Shown: piece after piece, positions 48,338 to 60,498 of the stretch | Position numbering within the stretch: the stretch's first letter is position 1 | Layout of the letters: every line of letters starts with the position of its first letter | Assembly (NCBI RefSeq): GCF_011039085.1 | Contig: NZ_JAAKEI010000003.1 | Span: 62,001-126,000, forward strand | Direction of reading: 5' to 3' | Source: Desulfovibrio sp. ZJ369 | Lineage (GTDB): Bacteria; Desulfobacterota; Desulfovibrionia; Desulfovibrionales; Desulfovibrionaceae | DNA length: 64,000 nucleotides | Notes under the pieces: generated by a model | What the model was told of the DNA's origin: nothing | What the model saw: the letters and a program-made list of their open reading frames with translations, nothing else | Database searches by the model: none | Translations under genes and position numbers: made by a program

Positions 48338-48952
48338 CTACCATCCGGGCAAAAAAGCGCGGCAGGCATAGGGCTGCGGAATGCGCAGCGCTTCGCTCAG
48401 GGGCAGGGCCAGATAGCGGGCCAGCAACGTCCGGTTCAAGCCCGCATGGCCCGCCAGCAGCAGTTGCCCTTCAGGATAGCGGGCCCGCCAGCGGGCCAGA
48501 GCCGCCAGAGCGCGGCGCTGCACATCAGCGAAACTCTCGCCTCCCGGCGGCCGGAATCGGGCCGGATCTTTGCCGCGCCGCTCGTATTGGCCGGGGAAGG
48601 CCTGCCGCACCTCCTGGGGTGTCAGTCCCTGCCAGGAGCCGAGATTGATTTCCCGCAAGTCCGCGTCCGCATGCAGTGGAACCGACGTTGCGGCAGTTGT
48701 GCCCTTTCCCTCTGCTCCGGCTGCCCAGGCTGCCGCAGTGGCAATAATCGCCGCGGTCTCCCGGCAACGCTCCAGATCAGAGGAAAGGACAGCCGCCAGC
48801 GCGCCGCTTTTCAAAACCGGCGCGAAATCACGGGCAAGCCCCCGGATCTGCGCGCGTCCGGCTTCGCTCAACGGCAGATCGCGCGCGCCCACGAAACGGC
48901 GCTCCGGATTGGGCGGCAAAGCCCCGTGGCGCACCAGCCAGAGACCGCTCAC
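48338..48952 (-). CDS. Histidine phosphatase (phosphoglycerate-mutase-like / CobC-like)
   Basis: 204 residues starting at GTG 48952, which overlaps the upstream stop (GTGA). LVRHGALPPNPERRFVGARD contains the phospho-accepting RHG histidine, and LAGHAGLNRTLLARYLALP the second catalytic histidine. The spacing resembles CobC-type alpha-ribazole phosphatases. It is the last gene of the mop cluster; the natural substrate is likely a phosphorylated intermediate of that pathway, which is inference. Confidence 0.85.
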   Translation of the reverse strand: MSGLWLVRHGALPPNPERRFVGARDLPLSEAGRAQIRGLARDFAPVLKSGALAAVLSSDLERCRETAAIIATAAAWAAGAEGKGTTAATSVPLHADADLREINLGSWQGLTPQEVRQAFPGQYERRGKDPARFRPPGGESFADVQRRALAALARWRARYPEGQLLLAGHAGLNRTLLARYLALPLSEALRIPQPYACRAFLPGW

Positions 48953-50124
48953 AAGCGCCCTTCCGTGCCGCTGAGGTCGGCCAGAACCCGCCGCGCTATG
49001 CGCGCGGGTTCCTGCCCCATCTCGCGGGCAAGACGCGCCTCCAGTGTCCGGGCCCGCCCCAGGCGCGCCCGGATGGCCGCGCAGGCCTCGGCGTCAGCGG
49101 CATAGAGCGCCAGTTTTTGGCCGAAGCGTTGCTCAAGGCTGACAAATTCTTTGCCGCGGCAGTATTTGTCGGCCAGATACACCACTTCCCGCTCGCCCAC
49201 AGGGCATCCTTCAGGCAGAGAAAGATCGCGGTGATCAACTGCCAGCGCGGCCATAACCGGCAGCCCCAGGCCGCGCAGCAAACGCCCGGCCGCGGCCTCA
49301 TGCCCGGCCTGGCCCTTGCAGATGTCGTGCAGCAGGCCTCCAGCCAGAGCCAGAGAGGGATCAATGCCCGGCGCAGATCCCTGGGCCGCGCGGCTCTCTT
49401 GCAGGGCCAGAGCCAGGCCCTGCGCCACGGCCCCCACCGCCTCGGCATGGCGCAGCCCTTTTTCCGGGATGCCCCGCTCGCGCAGCAGGCGGCGCGCCTC
49501 GGCGGGCGCAAGGGCCCCACGCCGCGCGGCCAGACCCCGCAGACGCGCATAATCTTCGGGCCTGTCCATGTCTTCAAGAACAAAGGAATCGGCGACCTCC
49601 ACCAGCCGCCGCGGCAAGGCTGCCAGCGCTCCGCGCAGACCGTCCCCGCCCTGGTAGTTGCAGATAGTTTTCGCAAAAGCCGCGGGCAACAGGGGCGGAT
49701 GCCCCTCCCTGCCCTCAAAGCCGGGAATCAGAACCGCGCGCGGCACAGCCCGCGCCTCCTCCAGCAAGGCCCGCACGGTCAGCGGACGAACCAGGGGCAC
49801 GTCCGCCGGATGCACGAATACCCGGTCGCAATCCGCGGCCACAGCCCGCAGCCCCACGCGCACCGAAGAAAACATGCCCTGCTCCGGATCGGGATTCCGC
49901 GCCGTCACAAGGTCCAGAGAACGGGCCGCCGTCTCCACCTCCGCCGCGTGATGGCCGCTGACCACAAGAATATCCCGCACTCCGGCCTCACGGTACAGGC
50001 GGGCAAGACCTTCCAGAGCCGGGCAATCCCGGCCGCCCGGCAGCAAGGGCAGGGGCAGGAGGGCTTTGACAGCCTTCATGCGCGAGGCCTGCCCGGCGGC
50101 CAGCACTACCGCGCAAATTTTCAT
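48949..50124 (-). CDS. MobA/MocA-like nucleotidyltransferase fused to HD domain
   Basis: 391 residues. The N-terminal ~200 residues are a GT-A nucleotidyltransferase of the MobA/MocA type (VLAAGQASRMKAVKALLPL, then HPADVPLVRPLTVRALLEEA), resembling molybdenum-cofactor cytidylyltransferases. The C-terminal half is an HD-type metal phosphohydrolase (GGLLHDICKGQAGHEAAAG, then AALAVDHRDLSLP). From memory this matches the family called DVU_1551 NTP transferase. A transferase and a hydrolase in one chain suggests control of a nucleotide-linked intermediate. It overlaps both neighbours by 4 bp. Confidence 0.85.
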   Translation of the reverse strand: MKICAVVLAAGQASRMKAVKALLPLPLLPGGRDCPALEGLARLYREAGVRDILVVSGHHAAEVETAARSLDLVTARNPDPEQGMFSSVRVGLRAVAADCDRVFVHPADVPLVRPLTVRALLEEARAVPRAVLIPGFEGREGHPPLLPAAFAKTICNYQGGDGLRGALAALPRRLVEVADSFVLEDMDRPEDYARLRGLAARRGALAPAEARRLLRERGIPEKGLRHAEAVGAVAQGLALALQESRAAQGSAPGIDPSLALAGGLLHDICKGQAGHEAAAGRLLRGLGLPVMAALAVDHRDLSLPEGCPVGEREVVYLADKYCRGKEFVSLEQRFGQKLALYAADAEACAAIRARLGRARTLEARLAREMGQEPARIARRVLADLSGTEGRL

Positions 50125-51266
50125 ACAGCCCCCTCAATGGCCGCTCGCGCGGCGATCCGCGCCTGTGCCCCTTTGGCTGGATGCGCAAGACGCATTTGCG
50201 CCGTTCCGCCGGAGCCGACCCGCTCCAGACGCCCCAGAACCGGCCCGATGCGGCGCAAGGGACTGCCGCAGGCGCAGGGGCCCGGCAAAAGCGCGGCCAC
50301 GTCGCCGGTGCGGTACCGGATCAGGGGCATGGCCTCGCGGTCAAGCGTGGTGATCACCACTTCGCCCGCCTCTCCAGGCGGCAGAGGCGCGCCGCTGGCC
50401 GCGTCCACGATTTCCGCCAGCACGTCCAGCTCGCGCAGATGATAGCCGTCGTGAGCCGCGCATTCCACAGCGCAGCCGAAAGCCGTTTCCGTGAGGCCGT
50501 AGTGATCCAGCAGCGCGCAGCCCCAGGCATGGCGCACGCGCCGGGCCAGGCCGGGATCAAGACGATCCGCGCTGGAAAGGACGCCGCGCAGGCCCGGCGG
50601 CCCCTGTTCGGGAAAAACGCGCAAAAGCAGGGCCAGTTGCGCGGGCGCGGCCACCAGACAATGCGGCGCGAAGTCCCTGAGCCAGCGGCGCAGATGGTCG
50701 GCATCGCCCCATATATGCCGGTCAGGAGCCTGATCCGCCCCGGAATGCGCCCCTGCCGGCGGGGGAACAGCCACGGCCACGCCCAGGGCAGCCAGAGCCT
50801 GCCGCAAAAGATCCGCCACGCCGTCAGGCCGCTCCGCGCCGGGCAAAAGCACGGCCAGGCGCTGGCCCGGCTCCACCAGTTGGCTCATGCCTGCCCGGAA
50901 AAAATCGCGGGTGCGGGCCAGATCCCGATCCGTAAAGGCCAGACGCTTGGGGCTGCCCGTGGTGCCTGAGGTTTGCAGGGTGACCATGCGCCGCACTTCG
51001 CCCTGCGAGACGCAGAGAAAATCGCGCCAGTTGCGCAAATCAGAAGGCTGTGTAAACGGCAGGCAAGGCAGATCTTCCGGGCCGCGCAGGTTGAGATCGC
51101 ACTGCGCCAGACGCCGCGCGTAAAAAGCGCTGCGCTCCAGAGCATAGCGCAACGTGCGGCGCAGGGCCGCAGCCTGAGCCTCGCGCAAACGCGCGGCCAG
51201 TTGCTTCGGCTCCCGCGCGCCGCAGGCCTGGGCAAGCCAGAGATCCAGACACGAGGGCCCGCTCAT
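50121..51266 (-). CDS. AMP-forming ligase-like protein (PaaK-like, DVU_1553 type)
   Basis: 381 residues from ATG 51266 (ATGA overlap; GTG 51272 is possible). The adenylate-forming motif LQTSGTTGSPKRLAFTDRDL, the DHYGLTETAFG motif and YRTGDVAALL identify an ANL-superfamily enzyme like phenylacetate-CoA ligase, though slightly short, with the C-terminal domain truncated. It probably activates a carboxylate with ATP. The substrate is unknown; its position in the cluster suggests a biosynthetic step rather than catabolism. Named from memory as the DVU_1553 family. Confidence 0.82.
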   Translation of the reverse strand: MSGPSCLDLWLAQACGAREPKQLAARLREAQAAALRRTLRYALERSAFYARRLAQCDLNLRGPEDLPCLPFTQPSDLRNWRDFLCVSQGEVRRMVTLQTSGTTGSPKRLAFTDRDLARTRDFFRAGMSQLVEPGQRLAVLLPGAERPDGVADLLRQALAALGVAVAVPPPAGAHSGADQAPDRHIWGDADHLRRWLRDFAPHCLVAAPAQLALLLRVFPEQGPPGLRGVLSSADRLDPGLARRVRHAWGCALLDHYGLTETAFGCAVECAAHDGYHLRELDVLAEIVDAASGAPLPPGEAGEVVITTLDREAMPLIRYRTGDVAALLPGPCACGSPLRRIGPVLGRLERVGSGGTAQMRLAHPAKGAQARIAARAAIEGAV

Positions 51267-52702
51267 GCCCACGGCTCTCCGTACAGCCGCGTTCCGTCAC
51301 GGGCCGTAAGATTGTGCAGACAAAAGGGAATCAGGCGCCCGTCGGGACGGACCACATGAATACAACAGCCGCGCACCCGTTCCAGATCCAGGTTGAGCGC
51401 GTCCTGAAAGGCCATGCCCGAAACGGTGAATCGCTGCCCGGCTCCGGCCCCGGCCAGAAATCGGTTGAAATCGCCCCCTGCGCCCGCTTCGTCCTTTGCG
51501 CCGCCCATGTCGCCCATGTCGCGCGGGCCCGCGCCCTTCCAGTGCAGGGCCACAAATTGTTTGGCCTTGCGCGCGCCTTCGGCCGCCGGGGGCGGCAACG
51601 GCGAACAGCAGCTCCTGTTGCTGTCGGGCAGCCATTCCAGATGGGCGCTTGCCCGTTTCCCGGCTTCTGCCCGGCCGGGCCGGCTCTGCGTGCTCACCCT
51701 GCGGTACAGCGCGCTGAAAGAGCACAAGGAATGTTCACAGCCCGGCGGATGAAAATGCGCGGCCCTGACCAACTCCGGCGCCTGGTGTTCCAATGCGGCC
51801 ATGATTTCGGGCAAGGTGAGCCGGGGCGCGTTTTCCAGGGGCCAGGGATAGCGCCCGAAGGAGGAAACAGGTTGAAAGTGCAGTCCGCGTACCGCAGGCC
51901 CCAGCGCAAGCGCAAGGCGCAGCAAGTCCCCCATTTCGCGATCATTGACGCCGCGGGCCACAGTGGCCACCAACACCACGCCCAGGCCCGCGGCCGCGCA
52001 GCGTTCCACGGCGCGGCGCTTCAGATCCAGGCAGGGCCTGCCGCGCAGGGTTTCAAAAACAGCCTCGCTGACGCCGTCCCATTGCAGATAAACCGAATCC
52101 AGCCCGGCCTCGCGCAGCCGCGTTGCATAGCCTTCTTCACGGCCCAGGCGCAGGCCGTTGGTATTGAGCTGCACCAGTCCGAAGCCGCGCTCCCGCGCAA
52201 GGCGGAGAATGGCGGGCAAATCCTCGCGCACTGTGGGCTCCCCGCCGGAAATCTGCACATTGCAAGGGCCTGAAGCGCTTCTGAGGCTATCCAGTTGCGC
52301 GGCCACAACGGCAAGCGGCGGGTCCGGGGGCAGCGCAGGCGCGCCCGCCCCGGCATAGCAGACCGGGCAGGACAAATCACAGCGCATGGTCACTTCCACC
52401 AGACCGGTGCAGGTATGCTGGGCATGCAGGCGGCAGAGCCCGCAGTCAAAGGGGCAGCCGCGCCGCACGGTCGTGCCGGGGTGAGCCGGATACGAAGGGC
52501 TTTTGGGCCGCGACCAGCTCTCAAAAAGCGGCGCGTTCTCCAAGCCGGGCCCCTCGCGCCAGACCGGCGCGCTGAACGGGCCGTGCTCCGGGCAGGTCTT
52601 GCGCAGCACAACGTCCCGGCAATCCCCGCCCACGCGCTGGTAAACGGCCTCCACGCGGCGCAGGCAGACGGGGCAGAGGCTTTGGGTGCGGCGCAGGATC
52701 AT
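51263..52702 (-). CDS. trsS: Radical SAM enzyme of the TrsS type
   Basis: 479 residues. The N-terminus has a zinc-ribbon-like CPVCLRRVEAVYQR and KTCPEHGPF, then CPFDCGLCRLHAQHTC. The radical SAM cluster motif is CDLSCPVCYAG (CxxxCxxC, near residues 108-115), followed by VQISGGEPTVREDL. Near residue 330 is a PPGCEHSLCSF cysteine group; in some relatives this family contains selenocysteine, here only cysteine codons are seen. A low-complexity insert lies around residues 345-420. The related tetraether-lipid and other SPASM-like enzymes join or methylate unactivated carbons. Substrate unknown. Confidence 0.85.
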   Translation of the reverse strand: MILRRTQSLCPVCLRRVEAVYQRVGGDCRDVVLRKTCPEHGPFSAPVWREGPGLENAPLFESWSRPKSPSYPAHPGTTVRRGCPFDCGLCRLHAQHTCTGLVEVTMRCDLSCPVCYAGAGAPALPPDPPLAVVAAQLDSLRSASGPCNVQISGGEPTVREDLPAILRLARERGFGLVQLNTNGLRLGREEGYATRLREAGLDSVYLQWDGVSEAVFETLRGRPCLDLKRRAVERCAAAGLGVVLVATVARGVNDREMGDLLRLALALGPAVRGLHFQPVSSFGRYPWPLENAPRLTLPEIMAALEHQAPELVRAAHFHPPGCEHSLCSFSALYRRVSTQSRPGRAEAGKRASAHLEWLPDSNRSCCSPLPPPAAEGARKAKQFVALHWKGAGPRDMGDMGGAKDEAGAGGDFNRFLAGAGAGQRFTVSGMAFQDALNLDLERVRGCCIHVVRPDGRLIPFCLHNLTARDGTRLYGEPWA

Positions 52703-53166
52703 GATGCGGCGGTCACATCCAGGTCATAGCTTTGCAGCAGTTCCAGAATCTTTTCCCAGCATTCGGCCAGCAGATCGCCGCAGGCCGCGGCATCCGGCGC
52801 GCCGCCGGTCTCGCCGCCCGCAACGGCGCCCAGCCCGGCCGCGATACAGCCGCAAGCCGTGCCGCCGTAGGGATTGACGCGCTCATAAAACCACAGGGCG
52901 TAGTCATTGAGCATGGGCGTGAGCATGGGATGCGCGGTTTCACTGTCCGCGCCCTTGCCGGTGGCAAGGGCCAGGGCGCAGGCCCCGCCGGTGAGCAGGC
53001 CGCAGGGCCCGTCGGACTGGCCGATGCCGTGGCAGAGGCCATGCATGGCGCGCACCAGCTCGGGATTTTGCCGGTCCCGCACTTGCAGCATGAGCAGGAT
53101 CAGCAGTTGGCTGCAGCAATAGCCCTGGCGCACCAAGGGCAGGAGTTCCAGCATCAGGGGATTCAT
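52699..53166 (-). CDS. C_GCAxxG_C_C family redox protein (DVU_1555 type)
   Basis: 155 residues from ATG 53166, with AAAGGAG five bases upstream. Cysteine pattern: GYCCSQLLIL, GQSDGPCGLLTGGACALAL, YGGTACGCIAAG and AACGDLLAECW, matching the C_GCAxxG_C_C family, whose members probably carry an iron-sulfur or other redox centre. No membrane span. Its ATGA overlap with the radical SAM gene suggests it supplies electrons or a partner surface for that enzyme; this is inference. Confidence 0.85.
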   Translation of the reverse strand: MNPLMLELLPLVRQGYCCSQLLILLMLQVRDRQNPELVRAMHGLCHGIGQSDGPCGLLTGGACALALATGKGADSETAHPMLTPMLNDYALWFYERVNPYGGTACGCIAAGLGAVAGGETGGAPDAAACGDLLAECWEKILELLQSYDLDVTAAS

Positions 53167-53879
53167 TGCGGCTCCTTTTGCGCTATCCACAGCCCGTAGC
53201 CCAGCGCGCGGCCTCCCTTGCAGGCACAATGCGCGGCCCGGCGATCCGGGCCCGGCGCGTCCGCGACATCGTACCAGATCAGGCGTGCCGCCAGCTCGGC
53301 CAGGGCCCGGCTGTGATCCTCAAAATAATGAAGAAAAAAACCGGCCCGCGCAAGCAGCCTTTCCCACTCCTCGCGCGCACGGGCTCCGTCCGCGCAGGAG
53401 AAGCGAGCCTCGGCACAACGCCCTGCTCTGCCGGAAGAGCCGCTCCCCCCAGGCGCGCGCAAAAAAAGATCGCTGACAAGCAGCGCGCCGCCGGGCCGCA
53501 AGACCCTTCGGCAGCCGCGCAGCACGGCACAAGGATCGTGCAGCAAAGAAAGCACGCACTCGCAGAGCACAGCGTCCAGACTGTTGTCCGTCAGGGGCAG
53601 ACAGGAGGCGTCGGCTTGCAGCGCGTTTATGCCTGACATTCGCTTCGGCCATGCCGCATGGGCGTTGCGATCCAGGCCCAGAGCGCGGTAGCCTTCCTGT
53701 GCCAGGAGATCCAGGCTTGCGCCACGGCCGCAGCCCAGATCCAGGACAAGGGAGCCGCGTTGCAGGCCGCAACGCTCCGCGCAGAGCTCAAGGCAGCGCC
53801 GGGTCAGTTCCGGGCCGCCGGGCCGCCAGACATCCCCTGCCACGCGCTGAAAATCGCGCTGTTCCCACAAAGGGCTCAT
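53163..53879 (-). CDS. SAM-dependent methyltransferase (TrsM/DVU_1556 type)
   Basis: 238 residues from ATG 53879, overlapping the upstream stop. The class I methyltransferase motif LVLDLGCGRGASLDLLAQEG, the acidic LGLDRN, LQADASCLPLTDNSLDAVL and VLRPGGALLVSD are complete. Extra cysteines near the C-terminus (HCACKGG) are unusual. A start 28 codons upstream is open but lies inside the preceding gene. It would methylate a small molecule or protein made in this cluster; the acceptor is unknown. Confidence 0.87.
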   Translation of the reverse strand: MSPLWEQRDFQRVAGDVWRPGGPELTRRCLELCAERCGLQRGSLVLDLGCGRGASLDLLAQEGYRALGLDRNAHAAWPKRMSGINALQADASCLPLTDNSLDAVLCECVLSLLHDPCAVLRGCRRVLRPGGALLVSDLFLRAPGGSGSSGRAGRCAEARFSCADGARAREEWERLLARAGFFLHYFEDHSRALAELAARLIWYDVADAPGPDRRAAHCACKGGRALGYGLWIAQKEPQ

Positions 53880-54091
53880 TTGTCTTCCAGCAAGGCTTCC
53901 ACTTCCAGCATCCTGCCCTGGGCCAGAGACTTGGGCACCAGGGTCAGCCCGCATTTCGGGCAACGTGGAAGATACACGTCAAATGCGCTGTTCAGATAGA
54001 ATGCCTGCACCTTGGCCTGCTCCAGCGGGCAGCGGCATTGGCCGCACACCCACTGGCCCGCGTCCGGCGGATAATTGGGCCCCATGCTCAT
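53876..54091 (-). CDS. Small CxxC/CxxC redox or zinc-ribbon protein (DVU_1557 type)
   Basis: 71 residues from ATG 54091, chosen because GGGGAGGG sits eight bases upstream. Two CxxC knuckles (WVCGQCRCPL and PRCPKCGLTL) give a rubredoxin- or zinc-ribbon-like fold. The frame is open upstream for another 54 codons, but 48 of these lie in the family B repeat, so that part is not protein. It is the first of seven genes joined by 4-bp overlaps. Confidence 0.8.
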   Translation of the reverse strand: MSMGPNYPPDAGQWVCGQCRCPLEQAKVQAFYLNSAFDVYLPRCPKCGLTLVPKSLAQGRMLEVEALLEDK

Positions 54092-54112
54092 GCGCTCTGC
54101 CCTCCCCGGTCC

Positions 54113-54262
54113 TAGAGCATTTTTTGATTGAAAATATTCATTTTCAATCACTTCGCTGCCATCATTTCGCGTCCAGAACGCGGTCTGGACGCTCATTCGG
54201 CGCGGGCGCCAGCTAACGCTGCCGCCAGAGCGTTTAGCTAATTTCATTAGCAAAACGCTCTA
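54113..54262 (-). repeat. Family B intergenic repeat, copy 2 (150 bp)
   Basis: Reverse complement of 28126-28275 with about five changes. It sits inside the mop operon between the oxidoreductase and the CxxC-protein gene, and its TAG (CTA at 54260-54262) is the stop codon of the oxidoreductase. The same hairpins are kept, with compensating or loop changes. Confidence 0.88.
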
Positions 54263-56605
54263 GCCGCTGTCCGCCACGCAGCCGCTCTGACCGCCGGAAC
54301 CGGGCACCTGCATCCGGTGGCACCAGGCGTCATGCAGCACCAGCACGCCGTCTTCATTGCTGTATTCAGCCCAGAAGGTCACATGGCGCGGCCGCCAGGA
54401 CGCCAGCCAATGCCCATTTTCCAGATTCTGAAAGCGTCCGCCCCCGGCTTCGGCGGCAGCTACGGCCCCTTCCACGTCCGAAAGCAGAATATGCCGCTCT
54501 TCCAGGCGCGCCAAAGTTTCCGGGGGCACATGCACAATGGCGGGCGCGGCTTCGTCCTCCTCTGTTCCCAAATATGCGCGCAGCAGCCTGCGGCGCAAAG
54601 CGGCCCGGTTGGCCCGGCGCGCGGAAAGACCCGGACCTTTTTGCGTCTCATCCGCAGCGCCCTGATCCGGAAACAGCAAATCCAGCAGATGACGGCACTT
54701 TTTGCCGTCCGCAACCAGCCTGTCCCGGCACATGATGCAGGAAGCCAGGGCCGTGTGCGGCAGCCCGGCGGCGCGATGTTCGCTCATAGCCCGCGCCAGA
54801 TCGGGCTGCGCGCACCAGACAAGGCCGCCGTAGCCGCAACAGGCCGTTGCCGCGCCGGAAAGGCGGGGCTCTTCCAGACGCGCGCCGCATTTGCGGGCCA
54901 GGCTGCGCACGGCGGTCAGCCAGGCCGCATCCCCGCGGGCCGTGCAGGGATCATGGATCGAAAATACTTCCGGCAAGGCTTGCGGGGATGCTTGTGGCAA
55001 CGGCAGGCCGTCCAGCACTTCCCAGACGGAAAGCGCTTTGGCCTCGGGCAGGGCGTCGCGCAATGCGCTCAAGCAGGAAGAGCAGGCCGCCATGATTTGA
55101 GGGCGGCCCAGTTGCTCCCACTGCTCCGCGAGCCGCGCCGCATGCTCCTTGAAAAGCGTTTCACGACCTGCCCAGCGCGCCGGAATCCCGCAGCAGGAAA
55201 GCAGCAGGGCCACGCCTGCCCTTTGCCCGGCCTGATCTTTCAGCGCGTCCCGCACATAGGCATAGAGCGCGCCCACCTGCTCCCCCCGCGAGGCCGCCAG
55301 CTGGCAACCGGGAAAGAAGAGCCAGGATGCGGGGCGTCCCTGGGGCAGGGAAACATCCGGCAGGGCCAGGGCGCACTCGGGGCCGGAGGCGCTTTCCATG
55401 TCTTCAAGCGCGAACTCATGGGCCGAGGGCGGCATGAAGTCGCGCTCCACCATATCCCGGCGCGCGGAAAGGCAGAGTTCCGCCATAGAGAAATTTTCAG
55501 GGCAGAGCTCCTGGCACTGGCCGCAGAGCGCGCAGCCGTTGACCAGGGCATTGGCTGTATGCAGGCCCTTGACGATGGAGGCATTATTGTAGATCTGGCG
55601 CGCATAGATCCGGGGATAGCCTTTGTATTTCTGGAGATACGCACATTCCCGGACGCAGAGCAGGCATTCGCATTGCAGGCAGCGGGCCGCCTCCCTGGCA
55701 GCCTCGTTTTCCGTATATATCTCTGCGGCGGGTTCCACACGCGGCTCAGGCTCCAGGCCCTCCAGGGAGGTGTGCAACGGACCCTGCTCTTTTTCGCGCG
55801 CGGCCGTCAATGAGACGCCACTTGCCAGCCGCTCCAGGGTCTGCGCGGCGCAACGCCCCTGCCCCGCCTGTGCTGAGGCCGAGGCATAACAATGGCCGGT
55901 GGCAGTGACGCTGAGCCATCCCGCGCAACAGATTTTGCCCCGCCAATGCAGGGTGGCAGCATCTATTGCGCTCTCAGGGGGGGCCAAAGCCTGAGCTGCA
56001 TCCGCGTCGATCAGCACGCCGTCGAATTCCGTTTCAGCGCGCTCCGCCAGGGCGGCGTCCAGAACAGCCTCGCTGAAAAGCACCTGGCGGCGAGCCAGCA
56101 TCTCCCGATCAGCCGCCAGAGGATCTTGTCCGGTCGTGACATCTTTTTTCAGGGCCGGATAGCGATCCCGCAAAAATTTCCACGCTTCTCCCTGGTGAAA
56201 AACAGTGACCGGGTAGCCCTTGGCCGCCAGATCATGGGCGGCGGCCAGACCGGCCAGGCCCGCGCCCAGGACGGCCATGCGGAACCGTTTGCGCGGCATG
56301 GGCAGCAGGCGTCTGGTCTGCTCGCCTGTTGTCACGCAGGCCAGCTCCAGGGCATGAATGGCAAGACTGCCGCCCAGATCCAAACGCAGGCAGACGTTTT
56401 CGCAAGGGTGATCGCAGATGCGCCCGATGATGCCCGGCAAGGGTAAATGCCGTTCCAGAACCTTACGGGCTTCAGCGGGCTTTTTTTCGGCCATGCGGGC
56501 CATGAAAGCGCGCACGTCCAAATGGAACGGGCAAGCGGCCCGGCAGTGCGGCGGGCTTTCCTGCGTGCAGCGGGCTTCAATCTCGTGGAGGCGACGTTGA
56601 TCCAT
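54260..56605 (-). CDS. FAD/pyridine-nucleotide and dicluster iron-sulfur oxidoreductase
   Basis: 781 residues with four parts. Residues 1-95 are a GltD-like [Fe-S] domain (CRAACPFHLDVRAFMA, CDHPCENVCLRLDL). Residues 105-290 are an FAD/NAD domain beginning AVLGAGLAGLAAAHDLAAKG. Next come two [4Fe-4S] motifs (CLQCECLLCVRECAYLQK, CALCGQCQELCPENF). Then CCG-type domains (FFPGCQLAAS, LLSCCGIPARWAGR, HDPCTARGDAAWL, CCGYGGLVWC). A C-terminal domain (AEYSNEDGVLVLHDAWCHRM) ends the protein. It should pass electrons between a pyridine nucleotide or flavin and the cluster's enzymes. Its stop codon is provided by a family B repeat. Confidence 0.87.
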   Translation of the reverse strand: MDQRRLHEIEARCTQESPPHCRAACPFHLDVRAFMARMAEKKPAEARKVLERHLPLPGIIGRICDHPCENVCLRLDLGGSLAIHALELACVTTGEQTRRLLPMPRKRFRMAVLGAGLAGLAAAHDLAAKGYPVTVFHQGEAWKFLRDRYPALKKDVTTGQDPLAADREMLARRQVLFSEAVLDAALAERAETEFDGVLIDADAAQALAPPESAIDAATLHWRGKICCAGWLSVTATGHCYASASAQAGQGRCAAQTLERLASGVSLTAAREKEQGPLHTSLEGLEPEPRVEPAAEIYTENEAAREAARCLQCECLLCVRECAYLQKYKGYPRIYARQIYNNASIVKGLHTANALVNGCALCGQCQELCPENFSMAELCLSARRDMVERDFMPPSAHEFALEDMESASGPECALALPDVSLPQGRPASWLFFPGCQLAASRGEQVGALYAYVRDALKDQAGQRAGVALLLSCCGIPARWAGRETLFKEHAARLAEQWEQLGRPQIMAACSSCLSALRDALPEAKALSVWEVLDGLPLPQASPQALPEVFSIHDPCTARGDAAWLTAVRSLARKCGARLEEPRLSGAATACCGYGGLVWCAQPDLARAMSEHRAAGLPHTALASCIMCRDRLVADGKKCRHLLDLLFPDQGAADETQKGPGLSARRANRAALRRRLLRAYLGTEEDEAAPAIVHVPPETLARLEERHILLSDVEGAVAAAEAGGGRFQNLENGHWLASWRPRHVTFWAEYSNEDGVLVLHDAWCHRMQVPGSGGQSGCVADSG

Positions 56606-56632
56606 ATCCGTTTACTCTGCAAAAGGCGCGGC

Positions 56633-56660
56633 GAAAAGGGGAGGTTGCCCTCCCCTTTTC
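56633..56660 (-). terminator. Hairpin after mop (partial terminator or attenuator)
   Basis: A perfect 12-base-pair stem, GAAAAGGGGAGG / CCTCCCCTTTTC with a four-base loop, lies 11 bases after the mop stop and 28 bases before the oxidoreductase start. The U-run is inside the stem, so termination may be incomplete. Confidence 0.6.
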
Positions 56661-56670
56661 TCAGTTGTTG

Positions 56671-59394
56671 TTACTTGGGCATGGCGGCCAGCACCTTTTC
56701 CGGCCGGGCGGGCAAATGCTTGACCCGCGCGCCGCAGGCGTTGGCAATGGCGTTGATGATCGCCGCATGGGGCGCGGAAAGGGGCATTTCGCCCACGCCC
56801 GATGCGCCGAAGGGGCCATCCGGCCGCGGGCTTTCCACATAGATGATTTCCATTTCATCGGGAATCATCCTGATGTCGGGTATGCCCGCGCCCGCGATGG
56901 TGCTGTGCTTTTTAATGTCCTCATAGTCCTCGCTCAGGGCCAGGCCCACGCCTTGAGCCATACCGCCGTAGATCTGGCCGTCAGTGACCAATCTGTTGCA
57001 GATGGAGCCGATGTCGGCCACGCAGGTCAGCTTTTCCACCTGGGTTTTGCCGGTATCCACGTCCACGGCCACTTCGGCCAGGAACAGGCCGTACATATAG
57101 CAGCAGAAGGGGTTGCCCTGACCGTTGGCGTCGCAATCCTTGGCCGGGGCGCTCCATTTGCCCGGCTGGCGCACGTCGCGGCCCTCCGCCTTCATGCCCG
57201 CGTAATCCAGAAAGCCGCCCGCGGGCTTGCGCATGGCTTCGATCAGCGTTTCGCAGGCCACGCGAATGGCATTGCCCACAACCACCTGGGAGCGCGAACC
57301 GCCGGCCGGGCCGGAGTTGGGCGCCTTGCTGGTGTCGTTGAGGACCAGACGGATTTTCTCCGCCGGAATCCCCAACGGCCGCAGAGCCGCATGCGCGGTG
57401 CCCAGCGTGCCGGAATCCGCGCCCTGGCCGTGATCTTCCCAGCATGCGCCGATGGTCACGCCGCCGTCCTCATTGAGCTCGGCCCAGGCTTCGGCCGTGT
57501 CCGGGCCGTCCAGGCCGGAACCATAGACGCCCAGAGACACGCCCACCCCGCGCTTGATCCTGCCCTCGGAATTGGCCTTGGCCTTTTCCAGGGCGGCCTT
57601 GTAACGGGGCCGCATCAGCTCGAACATTTCCGGCAGGCTGTACACTTCCGGCTCCTGGCCGGTGGGCGTGGTGTCGCCTTTGCGGTAGCAGTTGAGGGCG
57701 CGCAGTTCCAACGGGTCCATATGCAGCTTTTCGGCCAGCATGTCCATGAGCACTTCCGAAGGGAATTCGCTCTCCGGCGCGCCGTAGCCGCGGAAAGCCG
57801 CGCCCCAGCAGTGGTTGGTGCAGACCGTGCGCCCCTTGCCGCGGATATTGGGGATGCCGTAGCCCGCGCCGATATACTGGGCGCCGCGCAGGGTGAGCAG
57901 ATCCCCGAATTCGGAATACGGGCCATGATCCACGGACCAGTCGGTTTCCATGGCCAGCAATTTGCCGTTTTTGTCCGCCGCGTACCGCACTGTGGTCCAG
58001 AAGGGCGAGCGCTTGCCCGTATATTGCTGCTGCTGCTCATAGTTGTAGCGCAAATGGCAGGGACGGCCCGTGGCCAGCACGGCCACGCCCAGCAAGGCCT
58101 CCATGGTGGGGCTGAATTTATAGCCGAACGTGCCGCCCGTGGTGTTCTGGACCATAATCATATCGTTGGCGAAATCCAGGCCCAGGCCCGGCGCGATCAT
58201 CAGGCCGTGCAGATGCAGGCCGATGGACTTGGAATGGATGACCAGCTTGCCGTCCTCATTCAGATAGGCATAGCCCACGTCCGGCTCAATGGGCAGATGA
58301 GGCTGGCGCTGGGTGTAGAAGCTGTCTTCCACAACCACGTTGTTGGGGTCCTCGAAGAAGGGGCGGGTATCCTGGCCTTTTTCAATGTTCTGATCATAAT
58401 AGACATTGGGCGTGCCGGGGTGAATCTCAATGGCGTCCGGAGCCATGGCTTCGGGCGCGCTCATGTATTCGGGCAGCAGCTCCAGATCGAACTTGACTTT
58501 TTCCGCCGCCGCGCGGGCGTTGCATTCACTGTCGGCGCAGACAATGGCCAGAGCGTCCCCGTACTGAAAGACTTTTTCGTCATTAAGGATGGGCCGGTCC
58601 CAGCCGTCCCCCTTGTTGGTGGGGAAGGTGATCAGGCCGGTGATCCGGTTCTTGCCCTTGACGTCCTTGTGCGTCAGCACCTTGTAGACGCCGGGCATTT
58701 TTTCGGCTTCCGAAGTGTCGATGCCCTTGATCAGGGCATGGGACACTTTGGCCTGAGCCAAGGCCAGATGCAGGGTCTCAGGCGGCAGACGGTACGCGGC
58801 GTCGGCCCCGAATTCCGCAACGCCCGTAACCTTGGCCAGCGCGCTGGGCCGCGGCAGGCGCGTGCCCCAGATATGGCCGTCAGCCGGCATCTGGAACTCG
58901 ATCTCTTCGGGCTTTTTCTCGCCGCGCATGACCGCGGCCGCGTCCATGACGGCGTTGACCAGGGGCTGGTAGCCGGTGCAGCGGCAGATATTATGATGTT
59001 TCTGGAACCAGTCGCGCACGTCCTCCCGGCTCGGATTGGGGTTCACGTCCAGCAGGCCCTTGGCCGAAACAATGAATCCCGGCGTGCAGAAGCCGCACTG
59101 CGCTGCGCCGTGATATATCCAGGCCTTTTGCAGGGGGTGCAGGCAGGTGGGCGTGCCGATGCCCTCCAATGTGGTGATGGAGGCATTTTCCGGCACGCGG
59201 CGCATTTTGACGATGCAGGAGCGCACTACCTTGCCGTCCAGAATAACCGAACATGCGCCGCACTGGCCCTGACCGCAGCCCACCTTGACGCTGGTGATCT
59301 GCAACTGCCCGCGCAGCACATCGGCCAGCATGTCTTCGGAGTTGACCAGCAGCCGTCTGGGAATGCCGTTAACCACAAGCGTTTTTGTTTCCAT
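56671..59394 (-). CDS. mop: Aldehyde oxidoreductase (molybdenum hydroxylase, Mop type)
   Basis: 907 residues from ATG 59394 (AAGGAG six bases upstream), the length of D. gigas Mop. The first [2Fe-2S] ligands are Cys40, 45, 48 and 60 (GCGQGQCGACS); the second set begins Cys100/Cys103 (QCGFC) and continues with CRC. The molybdopterin-cytosine-dinucleotide domains follow, with FRGYGAPESEF, GPAGGSRSQVV and the catalytic glutamate in GASGVGEMPLSAPHAA near residue 869. There is no FAD domain, so electrons leave through the clusters. It oxidises aldehydes to acids. It is preceded by a molybdopterin-binding protein gene and followed by a hairpin. Confidence 0.96.
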   Translation of the reverse strand: METKTLVVNGIPRRLLVNSEDMLADVLRGQLQITSVKVGCGQGQCGACSVILDGKVVRSCIVKMRRVPENASITTLEGIGTPTCLHPLQKAWIYHGAAQCGFCTPGFIVSAKGLLDVNPNPSREDVRDWFQKHHNICRCTGYQPLVNAVMDAAAVMRGEKKPEEIEFQMPADGHIWGTRLPRPSALAKVTGVAEFGADAAYRLPPETLHLALAQAKVSHALIKGIDTSEAEKMPGVYKVLTHKDVKGKNRITGLITFPTNKGDGWDRPILNDEKVFQYGDALAIVCADSECNARAAAEKVKFDLELLPEYMSAPEAMAPDAIEIHPGTPNVYYDQNIEKGQDTRPFFEDPNNVVVEDSFYTQRQPHLPIEPDVGYAYLNEDGKLVIHSKSIGLHLHGLMIAPGLGLDFANDMIMVQNTTGGTFGYKFSPTMEALLGVAVLATGRPCHLRYNYEQQQQYTGKRSPFWTTVRYAADKNGKLLAMETDWSVDHGPYSEFGDLLTLRGAQYIGAGYGIPNIRGKGRTVCTNHCWGAAFRGYGAPESEFPSEVLMDMLAEKLHMDPLELRALNCYRKGDTTPTGQEPEVYSLPEMFELMRPRYKAALEKAKANSEGRIKRGVGVSLGVYGSGLDGPDTAEAWAELNEDGGVTIGACWEDHGQGADSGTLGTAHAALRPLGIPAEKIRLVLNDTSKAPNSGPAGGSRSQVVVGNAIRVACETLIEAMRKPAGGFLDYAGMKAEGRDVRQPGKWSAPAKDCDANGQGNPFCCYMYGLFLAEVAVDVDTGKTQVEKLTCVADIGSICNRLVTDGQIYGGMAQGVGLALSEDYEDIKKHSTIAGAGIPDIRMIPDEMEIIYVESPRPDGPFGASGVGEMPLSAPHAAIINAIANACGARVKHLPARPEKVLAAMPK

Positions 59395-59454
59395 GCGCGA
59401 CTCCTTAAAGTAAGAGGCTGACCGCACGTTGGCGGCGCAGCCCGTTTCGGATGC

Positions 59455-60498
59455 TCATTTGCCGAAAGGGCAGATCGGATAGCGGCACTGCGGGCAAGCG
59501 GCGCAAAAACCGCCGTGGCCGAGCGCGACCACGTCTTCGGCCGTAACTGTGAGCCCGGCCAGCAGGCGCGGGACCAGCAGGTCGAAAATACTTGCCTTGT
59601 GGTACATGACGCAGCCGGGCAGGCCCAGCACCGGCGCCTGCCCCTGGGGACCGTCCATATAGGCCAGCAAAAACATGGCTCCGGGGTAAACCGGCGCGCC
59701 GTAGCTGATTATCCGCGCGCCTGCCGCCCGGATGGCGGCCGGGGTTCGATCGTCCGGGTCCACCGACATGCCGCCGGTGACCACCACCATGTCCGCGCCC
59801 TGCGCAATGAAATCCCTGATGGCTGTGGCCGTCATGGCCACCTCGTCGCTGGTCAGGGTCTGGCCCAGGACCGTGCTGCCCAGCTCGGCGAATTTTTTGC
59901 GCAGCACCGGGCCGAAAGCGTCCTGAATCCGACCGGAAAAAACTTCGCTGCCTGTCGTCACGATGCCCACCTGCAGTTTCCGCAGGGGCAACACTTCAAT
60001 GATCGGCCTGGTGATCAGTGCCTCCACAGCCTGCAGTTTTTCTTCATCGATCAGTAAAGGCACAACGCGGGTTCCGGCCACGGCCCGGCCCTTATCCACC
60101 CGCTGCAAGGTATGCAGGCTGGCCAGAGTTATCTCCCCAAGGCTGTTGAGCCGGGTGAGCATGGGCACGTCCACCCGCAACAGCCCCGCGCAGGCGGCGG
60201 AAAAATCGATCCGGCCTTCTCTGGGCTCGCCTATTGCGATATTGCGGCCGGCAGCTACCGCGGCTATGCGGGCCGCCGCCTCATTTTCATGCACAAGGCC
60301 CGGCTGGGGCTCGAAGACGTACAGATGCTCCTTGCCCACATCCAGCAGCACAGGAATATCCTCCTGACGCACCACATGCCCCTTGCGGAACACCGGCCCC
60401 TTGGAGTCGCCCGGCACGATGCGGGTAATATCATGGCAGAGCACGCTCCCCACGGCCTCGCGCACGTTGATGGTTTTCATGGCGGCGTTTTTCGACAT
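59455..60498 (-). CDS. MoeA/MogA-like molybdopterin-binding protein with C-terminal Cys cluster
   Basis: 347 residues. The molybdopterin-binding core (about residues 175-290) has VGIVTTGSEVFSGRIQDAFG, VTGGMSVDPDDRTPAAIRAAG and VLGLPGCVMYHKASIFDLL. The N-terminal ~165 residues resemble the MoeA leading region but are shorter. The last 20 residues carry CAACPQCRYPIC, a CxxCxxCxxxxC group fit for zinc or an iron-sulfur cluster, not found in standard MoeA. It heads the mop operon and probably inserts or sorts the cofactor for Mop. ATG 60480 is a possible later start. Confidence 0.85.
   Translation of the reverse strand: MSKNAAMKTINVREAVGSVLCHDITRIVPGDSKGPVFRKGHVVRQEDIPVLLDVGKEHLYVFEPQPGLVHENEAAARIAAVAAGRNIAIGEPREGRIDFSAACAGLLRVDVPMLTRLNSLGEITLASLHTLQRVDKGRAVAGTRVVPLLIDEEKLQAVEALITRPIIEVLPLRKLQVGIVTTGSEVFSGRIQDAFGPVLRKKFAELGSTVLGQTLTSDEVAMTATAIRDFIAQGADMVVVTGGMSVDPDDRTPAAIRAAGARIISYGAPVYPGAMFLLAYMDGPQGQAPVLGLPGCVMYHKASIFDLLVPRLLAGLTVTAEDVVALGHGGFCAACPQCRYPICPFGK

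Follow-up and report, generated by a model that had tools for sequence, protein, structure and literature searches.

A radical SAM gene set linked to the aldehyde oxidoreductase Mop of Desulfovibrio also accompanies other pyranopterin enzymes

The aldehyde oxidoreductase (AOR) of Desulfovibrio gigas was the first xanthine oxidase family enzyme to have its crystal structure solved; it carries an ordinary cofactor of the cytosine-dinucleotide type, resolved at 1.28 Å, and two Fe/S centres, is active without a sulfido ligand and donates electrons to flavodoxin in vitro (PMC10223205). In a 64,000-nucleotide stretch of DNA from Desulfovibrio sp. ZJ369 (hereafter the window), this enzyme, Mop, is encoded in a cluster of ten genes that runs on the minus strand from 60498 down to 48338 in the order MoCF, Mop, diclust, DVU1557, MTase, CGCA, TrsS, ligase, NTPHD, HPase (Table 1). 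Mop is full length (positions 2-904 of 905 in NF045668) and its nearest solved chains, 1dgj (1767 bits) and 1sij with 1vlb (1456 bits), are the Desulfovibrio aldehyde oxidoreductase, that is, Mop itself. As far as PMC10223205 was available to us, it deals with the enzyme and with flavodoxin in vitro and does not treat the other nine genes. For most of the genes that accompany this family of enzymes, no function has been assigned. Here we report that the operon combines separable modules.

Clusters of this kind are already catalogued, with no assigned product, since eight of the ten genes exceed curated NCBI cut-offs (the DVU_1551, 1553, 1555, 1556, 1557, TrsS, dicluster and Mop families); these are the families of the DVU_1551-DVU_1557/TrsS neighbourhood of NCBIfam, in which the NCBI names assign no product. 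An earlier note on this DNA had placed ten genes on one strand and proposed a match to D. vulgaris DVU1551-DVU1559. The gene list is borne out by frames, starts, stops and the eight family models, and the proposed match is consistent with the NCBI names. DVU_1559 is given as an aldehyde oxidoreductase in PMC10920352, and PMC13188914 lists a 'Radical SAM selenoprotein TrsS', citing Haft & Tolstoy 2025. In the literature found, neither the exchange of partner enzymes, nor the fusion of DC to DVU1557, nor the ligand conservation described below came up; Haft & Tolstoy 2025 may cover some of these.

Mop and TrsS, the latter a radical S-adenosylmethionine (SAM) protein, were profiled in 218 genomes of the window's phylum and in 157 genomes from the class to which Clostridium drakei belongs. 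The samples used in this work were assigned to Desulfobacterota, Clostridia and Desulfuromonadia by way of the window's relatives and the record titles of the loci taken as centres. In the phylum sample TrsS exceeds its cut-off in 23 genomes and Mop in 16, and TrsS is present in all 16; in the class sample both exceed their cut-offs in the same 5 genomes (Fisher test, 3.5e-19 and 1.3e-9, respectively, kinship ignored). In the genomes sampled, the aldehyde oxidase Mop is almost never found without the TrsS enzyme set. TrsS occurs without Mop over cut-off in 6 of the 23 phylum-sample genomes (G212, G131, G075, G108, G125 and G152), and in a further TrsS genome, G104, Mop is split across two contigs. 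The earlier note had raised co-occurrence with a molybdenum hydroxylase only; for the core genes defined below this does not hold, since G212, G131, G075 and G108 (85 to 100% complete) have TrsS over cut-off and no match to the Mop model (NF045668) at E <= 0.001, a level reached by 111 of the 218 genomes. Nine genomes showed no Mop at the TrsS locus: Mop exceeds its cut-off elsewhere in four (G218, G219, G225 and G226), G220 has Mop-like fragments, and G221-G224 have none over cut-off. A single TrsS over cut-off stands alongside two Mops in G088 and three in G319, which suggests action in trans. Viral contigs searched with patterns from the window TrsS gave no match. AFOR was present in 12 of 14 whole genomes, a count that was not used because its background rate is not known.

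We define the Trs core as the DC domain (the C-terminus of diclust), DVU1557, the methyltransferase (MTase), CGCA, TrsS and the ligase. Its neighbours were compared in eighty named loci, the best 80 of at least 540 relatives ranked by likeness to one Mop-type TrsS, so the set favours Mop-type loci. Many of the eighty have the order Mop-diclust-DVU1557-MTase-CGCA-TrsS-ligase, and in Mop-type loci the ligase is often followed by XdhC (NF045664), NTPHD, HPase and a sigma-54 activator. Records with the Mop-type order bear titles that name Clostridium, Acetobacterium, Sporomusa, Desulfosporosinus, Anaerolineae, Campylobacterales, Geobacter and sulfate reducers. Other loci lack Mop and carry an AFOR (PF01314/PF02730; L078, L132 and L133, the L078 genome having Mop elsewhere) or an enzyme of the DMSO-reductase family (DMSOR; L108 and L121). 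With further loci drawn from the classes of G222 and G152, the order AFOR-small gene-DC(/DVU1557)-MTase-(CGCA)-TrsS-ligase is found at seven loci (L132, L133, L196 and L203-L206; no ligase was found in the L196 cluster) and DMSOR-small gene-DC-MTase-CGCA-TrsS-ligase at three (L209, L210 and L212), and at L197 and L201 AFOR lies near the core in a different gene order. From L175 on, AFOR was called with our own small model (7 sequences, 3 Pfam-checked) and DMSOR with another (members of 8 loci, 1 Pfam-checked). At the three loci checked by Pfam the small gene encodes a 4Fe-4S protein (L133 and L205) or an FmdE-like protein (L210). A MoeA-like gene follows the small gene in L132, where it is full and in place of MoCF, and in L203.

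Partners were counted in 150 loci, 9 kb each way of TrsS; the count holds at least three pairs from the same record or with identical TrsS (L031/L065, L121/L201 and L095/L175). Among the 88 Mop-type loci, ligase and MTase are each present in 84 and diclust or DC in 87, with NTPHD in 52, XdhC in 56, HPase in 50 and a window-type MoCF in 39. In the 19 Mop-less loci with AFOR, DMSOR or a 2-hydroxyacyl-CoA dehydratase-like gene (HGD-D), the ligase (14), MTase (17) and diclust or DC (19) are retained, and NTPHD, XdhC, HPase and window-type MoCF occur in 0. Another 38 of the 150 loci have no partner in reach (NTPHD 10, XdhC 10, HPase 4), some of them lying at contig ends and seven being sub-cut-off TrsS paralogues (L054-L059 and L062). 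At L217 the core is found with a TRAP transporter, a fumarate-reductase-like flavoprotein, a second AMP ligase, a corrinoid protein, RACo and an IclR regulator; L215 and L216 resemble this locus by open reading frame (ORF) sizes.

The relationship between these groups was examined in a tree of 101 TrsS rows (quick LG+G4), which used 44 of the 88 Mop rows and left out L065 and nine loci, L054-L062, two of the nine being restored as outgroup. The AFOR rows form a clade of 10 (support 100) whose sister clade has 7 rows (4 DMSOR and 3 with no partner in reach; 99); the AFOR clade includes L209, where a DMSOR gene lies upstream and the contig ends in part of an AFOR gene. Both are nested in a larger clade of 88 rows (100), to which all 44 Mop rows in the tree belong. 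Ten Mop-less rows form a clade outside it (89); HGD-D, RACo or corrinoid genes occur in the vicinity of some of these, and at L052 and L215-L217 a DMSOR gene is further off from the core. The branching suggests that the core came first, that Mop joined it and that AFOR or DMSOR then replaced Mop, an order that is likely but not proven because support falls below 95 at several inner nodes and the tree has some long branches.

In Mop clusters the DC domain comprises roughly 90 residues at the C-terminus of diclust (about residues 650-770). In Mop-less loci DC is fused to DVU1557 in 15 distinct proteins (L108, L121, L132, L196, L197, L201, L203-L206 and L210-L214), with AFOR, DMSOR or no partner in reach; it is a separate, unfused protein in L078, L133 and L209, and the hit at L042:14912 is not a DC domain. 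This arrangement, the C-terminus of diclust in one setting and a fusion to DVU1557 in the other, links DC with DVU1557 and, in Mop clusters, with the redox partner, and so connects the core to that partner. The fold predicted for DC-DVU1557 (predicted local distance difference test score 89) had no Foldseek match under E 0.001, and from a RelE/BrnT-like small fold (Z 7.5) no function was read, this Z lying in a range common for unmatched models.

Maturation of xanthine-oxidase-family enzymes by MocA and XdhC offers a comparison for the nucleotidyltransferase of the operon. The N-terminal domain of NTPHD is likewise MocA-like; the window differs in the fusion of NTPHD to an HD domain and in an operon without XdhC. 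NTPHD scores 111 bits against the MocA-type model TIGR03310, under the cut-off of 186, and is the top MocA match in its own genome (113 bits, runner-up 33). An XdhC homologue is present unlinked in that genome (G000:C21; 304 of 350 bits), and we rejected the idea that Desulfovibrio Mop goes without a sulfido ligand through missing XdhC on that ground. A member of the XdhC family is present at 45 of the 114 loci compared; in 33 cases it lies two genes after TrsS. NTPHD exceeds its cut-off in 12 of 17 phylum-sample and 3 of 5 Clostridium-sample Mop genomes. The distribution of NTPHD and XdhC differs from that of the core: some TrsS-less genomes have NTPHD, and the 19 loci with AFOR, DMSOR or HGD-D have neither. 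The two thus appear to provide the customary step that finishes a cytosine-dinucleotide cofactor, apart from the core. The earlier note had united the nucleotidyltransferase and the other genes in one molybdenum-hydroxylase pathway, a proposal not supported by the Mop-less TrsS genomes, by the AFOR and DMSOR loci, or by NTPHD itself, which exceeds its cut-off in 1 of 11 Mop-less TrsS genomes (G221; the 11 include G039, with a split TrsS) versus 4 of 10 TrsS-less ones (G040, G089, G161 and G134, adjoining XdhC in G040, G161 and G134), the ten being hand-picked, partly for XdhC or Mop-like hits.

The best solved relative of TrsS is tetraether synthase (Tes, also GDGT-MAS or MJ0619; 7tol/7tom, 271 bits). 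Tes traps its radical as a C-S bond, passing from substrate to a sulfur of an auxiliary cluster, and bacterial Tes homologues exist in organisms not known to make such lipids (PMC9433317). The AlphaFold model of TrsS (predicted template-modelling score 0.89) matches 7tol over its full length with a template-modelling (TM) score of 0.74, the next fold reaching 0.40. The two proteins have in common, besides this modelled fold, the rubredoxin site, the N-terminal cluster motif, the radical SAM motif and the labile methionine. With Tes ligands taken as in PMC9433317 and the N-terminal-cluster histidine mapped by position, the window TrsS keeps C10, C13, C37 and H40; C83, C87, C90 and H93; C108, C112 and C115; and M430. 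Ligands of the rubredoxin site, N-terminal cluster and radical SAM cluster are invariant in 31 of 31 (alignment A3) and 17 of 17 sequences (A1), the set of 17 including five Mop-less members. M430, which aligns with the labile Met439 of the Tes C-terminal cluster, is invariant in both alignments, and the invariant C327, C446 and C461 are candidate cysteine ligands of that cluster. TrsS scores 307.6 bits against the Tes model NF045702, under the cut-off of 450, and also differs from Tes in its bacterial operon context. Because the mapped metal ligands and the predicted fold are kept, TrsS probably works like Tes, though it is not classed as Tes. A pterin-methylating assignment made earlier for MJ0619 could not be corroborated by the Tes authors (PMC9433317), and with it goes the apparent link from TrsS to pterin chemistry.

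Selenocysteine is likely in one relative of TrsS. The window trsS has no in-frame TGA. At L134:9747-11315 an in-frame TGA, at PPG(U)ENALCSF, occupies a position that is Cys or Ser in relatives and precedes an invariant Cys by five residues. A loose scan for in-frame TGA was swamped by read-through past true stops; the strict version used instead gave one plausible case, in TrsS, the other rows resembling read-through at gene ends. The TrsS of G612 has one TGA. Two TrsS genes occur in one cluster at L176:6885-9474 and at L191. Proteins at L054-L059 and L062 are TrsS-like, fall below the NCBI cut-off, stand without core genes and form a further Tes-like bacterial family; at L056-L059, members of a LivG-type ABC ATPase family lie at some of these sub-cut-off loci.

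Our tentative reading, held with less than even confidence, is that the Trs core is a module which makes a carrier for the electron partner of the oxidoreductase and serves several pyranopterin enzymes. A module on the electron-transfer side fits because of the action in trans suggested by G088 and G319, the DC link and the ordinary cofactor. The reading also accords with the presence of TrsS in every genome with Mop over cut-off, the retention of the core beside other pterin enzymes and the Tes motifs and modelled fold of TrsS. Mop oxidizes an aldehyde to the acid, and NTPHD with the unlinked XdhC homologue would most likely make and finish its cytosine-dinucleotide cofactor; the Trs core would be a module apart. 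As to its substrate, reaction, carrier role and part in electron transfer, we infer the following. The ligase would adenylate a carboxylate; TrsS would abstract a hydrogen from an unactivated carbon, with the radical trapped on the C-terminal 4Fe-4S cluster and a C-S or C-C bond formed Tes-style; and the methyltransferase would trim the product. CGCA, DVU1557 and the CCG cluster may provide thiol or disulfide redox of this product, which would end on or near the DC-DVU1557 pair, as part of or beside the enzyme's redox partner. A more specific form, in which the core makes a new organic redox group, formed by Tes-type radical chemistry through C-S or C-C bonding to an activated acid and borne by DC-DVU1557, that couples Mop, AFOR and DMSO-reductase-type enzymes to their electron partners in anaerobes, seems to us unlikely as it stands.

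Several observations weigh against such a carrier module. Tyr459 of Tes, fully conserved among archaeal Tes (PMC9433317), aligns with V450 of TrsS. The window ligase keeps its adenylation motifs and ends at 355 of 470 model positions, so that its C-terminal domain is lost: the ligases of its relatives L035, L039, L044-L046, L049 and L050, and that of L180, also stop at about 350 of 470, without the part bearing the KR motif, which other ligases keep. Four more short ligases (L097, L114, L129 and L184) lie at record ends. The motif names are carried over from related ligases, in which the KR motif presumably holds the catalytic lysine. In G330 a cluster Mop-diclust-DVU1557-MTase-CGCA-ligase stands without TrsS, its Mop being a contig-end piece of 793 bits, below cut-off. 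Multiple TrsS over cut-off occur in single genomes (two in G222 and G480, three in G340), which is easier to reconcile with partner-specific roles than with a single product common to all. In 5 of 17 phylum-sample Mop genomes NTPHD does not reach its cut-off, so its part in the model is not general. Finally, some members of the deepest Mop-less clade lie near 2-hydroxyacyl-CoA dehydratase-like or corrinoid/RACo genes with no directly adjacent pterin enzyme, and L217 resembles a catabolic operon with its TRAP transporter.

These last points bear on a catabolic pathway, in which the core would act on one specific carboxylate or aldehyde substrate, with the adjoining step of the pathway catalysed by the pterin enzyme, the corrinoid system or the dehydratase. 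The gene set around the core at L217 is of this type, aldehydes are substrates of the Mop and AFOR families, several TrsS copies can share a genome, and two families recur nearby, an Fe-ADH family at 7 of 114 loci and, at 23 of 114, sigma-54 activators with a DhaR/PrdR-like representative. We nevertheless regard it as possible but doubtful: one TrsS stands with two or three Mops in G088 and G319, Mop depends near-strictly on TrsS in two distant samples, whereas catabolic steps are usually dispensable, and no transporter is shared, the commonest transporter-like family, an ABC ATPase, occurring in 21 of 114 loci, several of them TrsS-paralogue loci.

The core might instead modify or load the Mo/W enzyme or its Fe-S partner directly, by post-translational modification or cluster insertion. 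Such dedicated maturation would account for a core adjoining three unrelated pterin enzyme families and for Mop implying TrsS, and the MoeA gene of L132 and a binding-protein-dependent transporter at L091, possibly for molybdate or tungstate, are in keeping with it. It is rather unlikely, however: the D. gigas AOR has an ordinary cofactor and two Fe/S centres in an account that, as available to us, does not discuss modified residues (PMC10223205), and an AMP ligase with a methyltransferase suits a small molecule better. The form given in the earlier note, a pathway for a modified molybdenum cofactor of Mop only, draws on the tight linkage to Mop, the MocA-like nucleotidyltransferase and the pterin methylation once proposed for MJ0619. 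That proposal was not corroborated (PMC9433317), the D. gigas cofactor is of the ordinary kind (PMC10223205), and 6 of 23 TrsS genomes are without Mop over cut-off, 4 of them without any Mop-model match. Because the core occurs without Mop, and next to AFOR or to enzymes of the DMSOR family, we consider a cofactor pathway for Mop only very unlikely and largely refuted. The same note's remark that radical SAM enzyme, methyltransferase and ligase together exceed the needs of Mop's cofactor is supported.

Should the core indeed produce a carrier or cofactor, work on one class of anaerobic Mo/W enzymes has so far proceeded with a component missing, and radical chemistry of the Tes type would have a second task, outside lipids. 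A published barcoded transposon library of D. vulgaris makes the question testable now (PMC10102598); in the main text of that report none of the DVU155x loci is named.

Table 1. Genes of the cluster in the window, in transcriptional order, with supporting family matches.
Gene	Coordinates	Strand	Support
MoCF, MoeA/MogA-like molybdopterin-binding protein, C-terminal Cys tail, first gene	59455..60498	-	PF00994 83.7 bits
Mop, molybdopterin-dependent aldehyde oxidoreductase, two 2Fe-2S domains and Mo domains	56671..59394	-	NF045668 1648 bits (cut-off 1100)
diclust, Fer4_20/NAD-binding, 4Fe-4S dicluster, CCG domain, C-terminal DC domain	54260..56605	-	NF045663 890 (cut-off 530), Pfam
DVU1557/DUF7479, 71 aa, four-Cys zinc-ribbon or redox protein	53876..54091	-	NF045645 89.6 bits (cut-off 60)
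MTase, DVU1556 SAM methyltransferase	53163..53879	-	NF045667 220 bits (cut-off 155)
CGCA, DVU1555 C_GCAxxG_C_C redox protein	52699..53166	-	NF045669 156 bits (cut-off 103)
TrsS, radical SAM protein, predicted tetraether-synthase fold	51263..52702	-	NF045646 568 bits (cut-off 490); 7tol/7tom
Ligase, DVU1553 PaaK-like adenylate-forming, without C-terminal lid domain	50121..51272	-	NF045666 407 bits (cut-off 300)
NTPHD, MocA-like nucleotidyltransferase fused to HD domain	48949..50124	-	NF045665 396 bits (cut-off 315)
HPase, histidine phosphatase, alpha-ribazole-phosphatase-like, last gene	48338..48952	-	PF00300 160 bits

All ten genes are open from their start codon to one stop at the end, and neighbouring genes overlap by 4 to 10 bases at the six successive junctions between DVU1557 and HPase. 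In the raw ORF list four starts lay too far upstream; they were re-set using family models and relatives, all to ATG: Mop at 59394 (residue 1 of 1dgj), DVU1557 at 54091, MTase at 53879 and CGCA at 53166. HPase scores 132 bits against the alpha-ribazole-phosphatase model TIGR03162, below the cut-off of 162.9. Matches of MoCF are limited to generic MoCF models; its C-terminus (59455-59510) bears a cysteine tail resembling CRYPxCxFGK, which is kept in L067, L075, L117 and others. The same genome encodes a second molybdenum-hydroxylase Mo-binding domain (G000:C69:4499-5209; 120 bits). An ORF of roughly 390 aa on the opposite strand, with no Pfam or NCBIfam family, recurs in 5 loci and is likely antisense to XdhC. 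At L091:15547-17162, right after HPase, are SBP_bac_11 and BPD_transp_1 genes, families related to these occur in L098, and L185, L186 and L188 have ORFs of similar size. No other gap in this otherwise compact operon is as long as the 168-base spacer between diclust and DVU1557 (54092-54259), which contains the inverted repeat GCGTCCAGA...TCTGGACGC.

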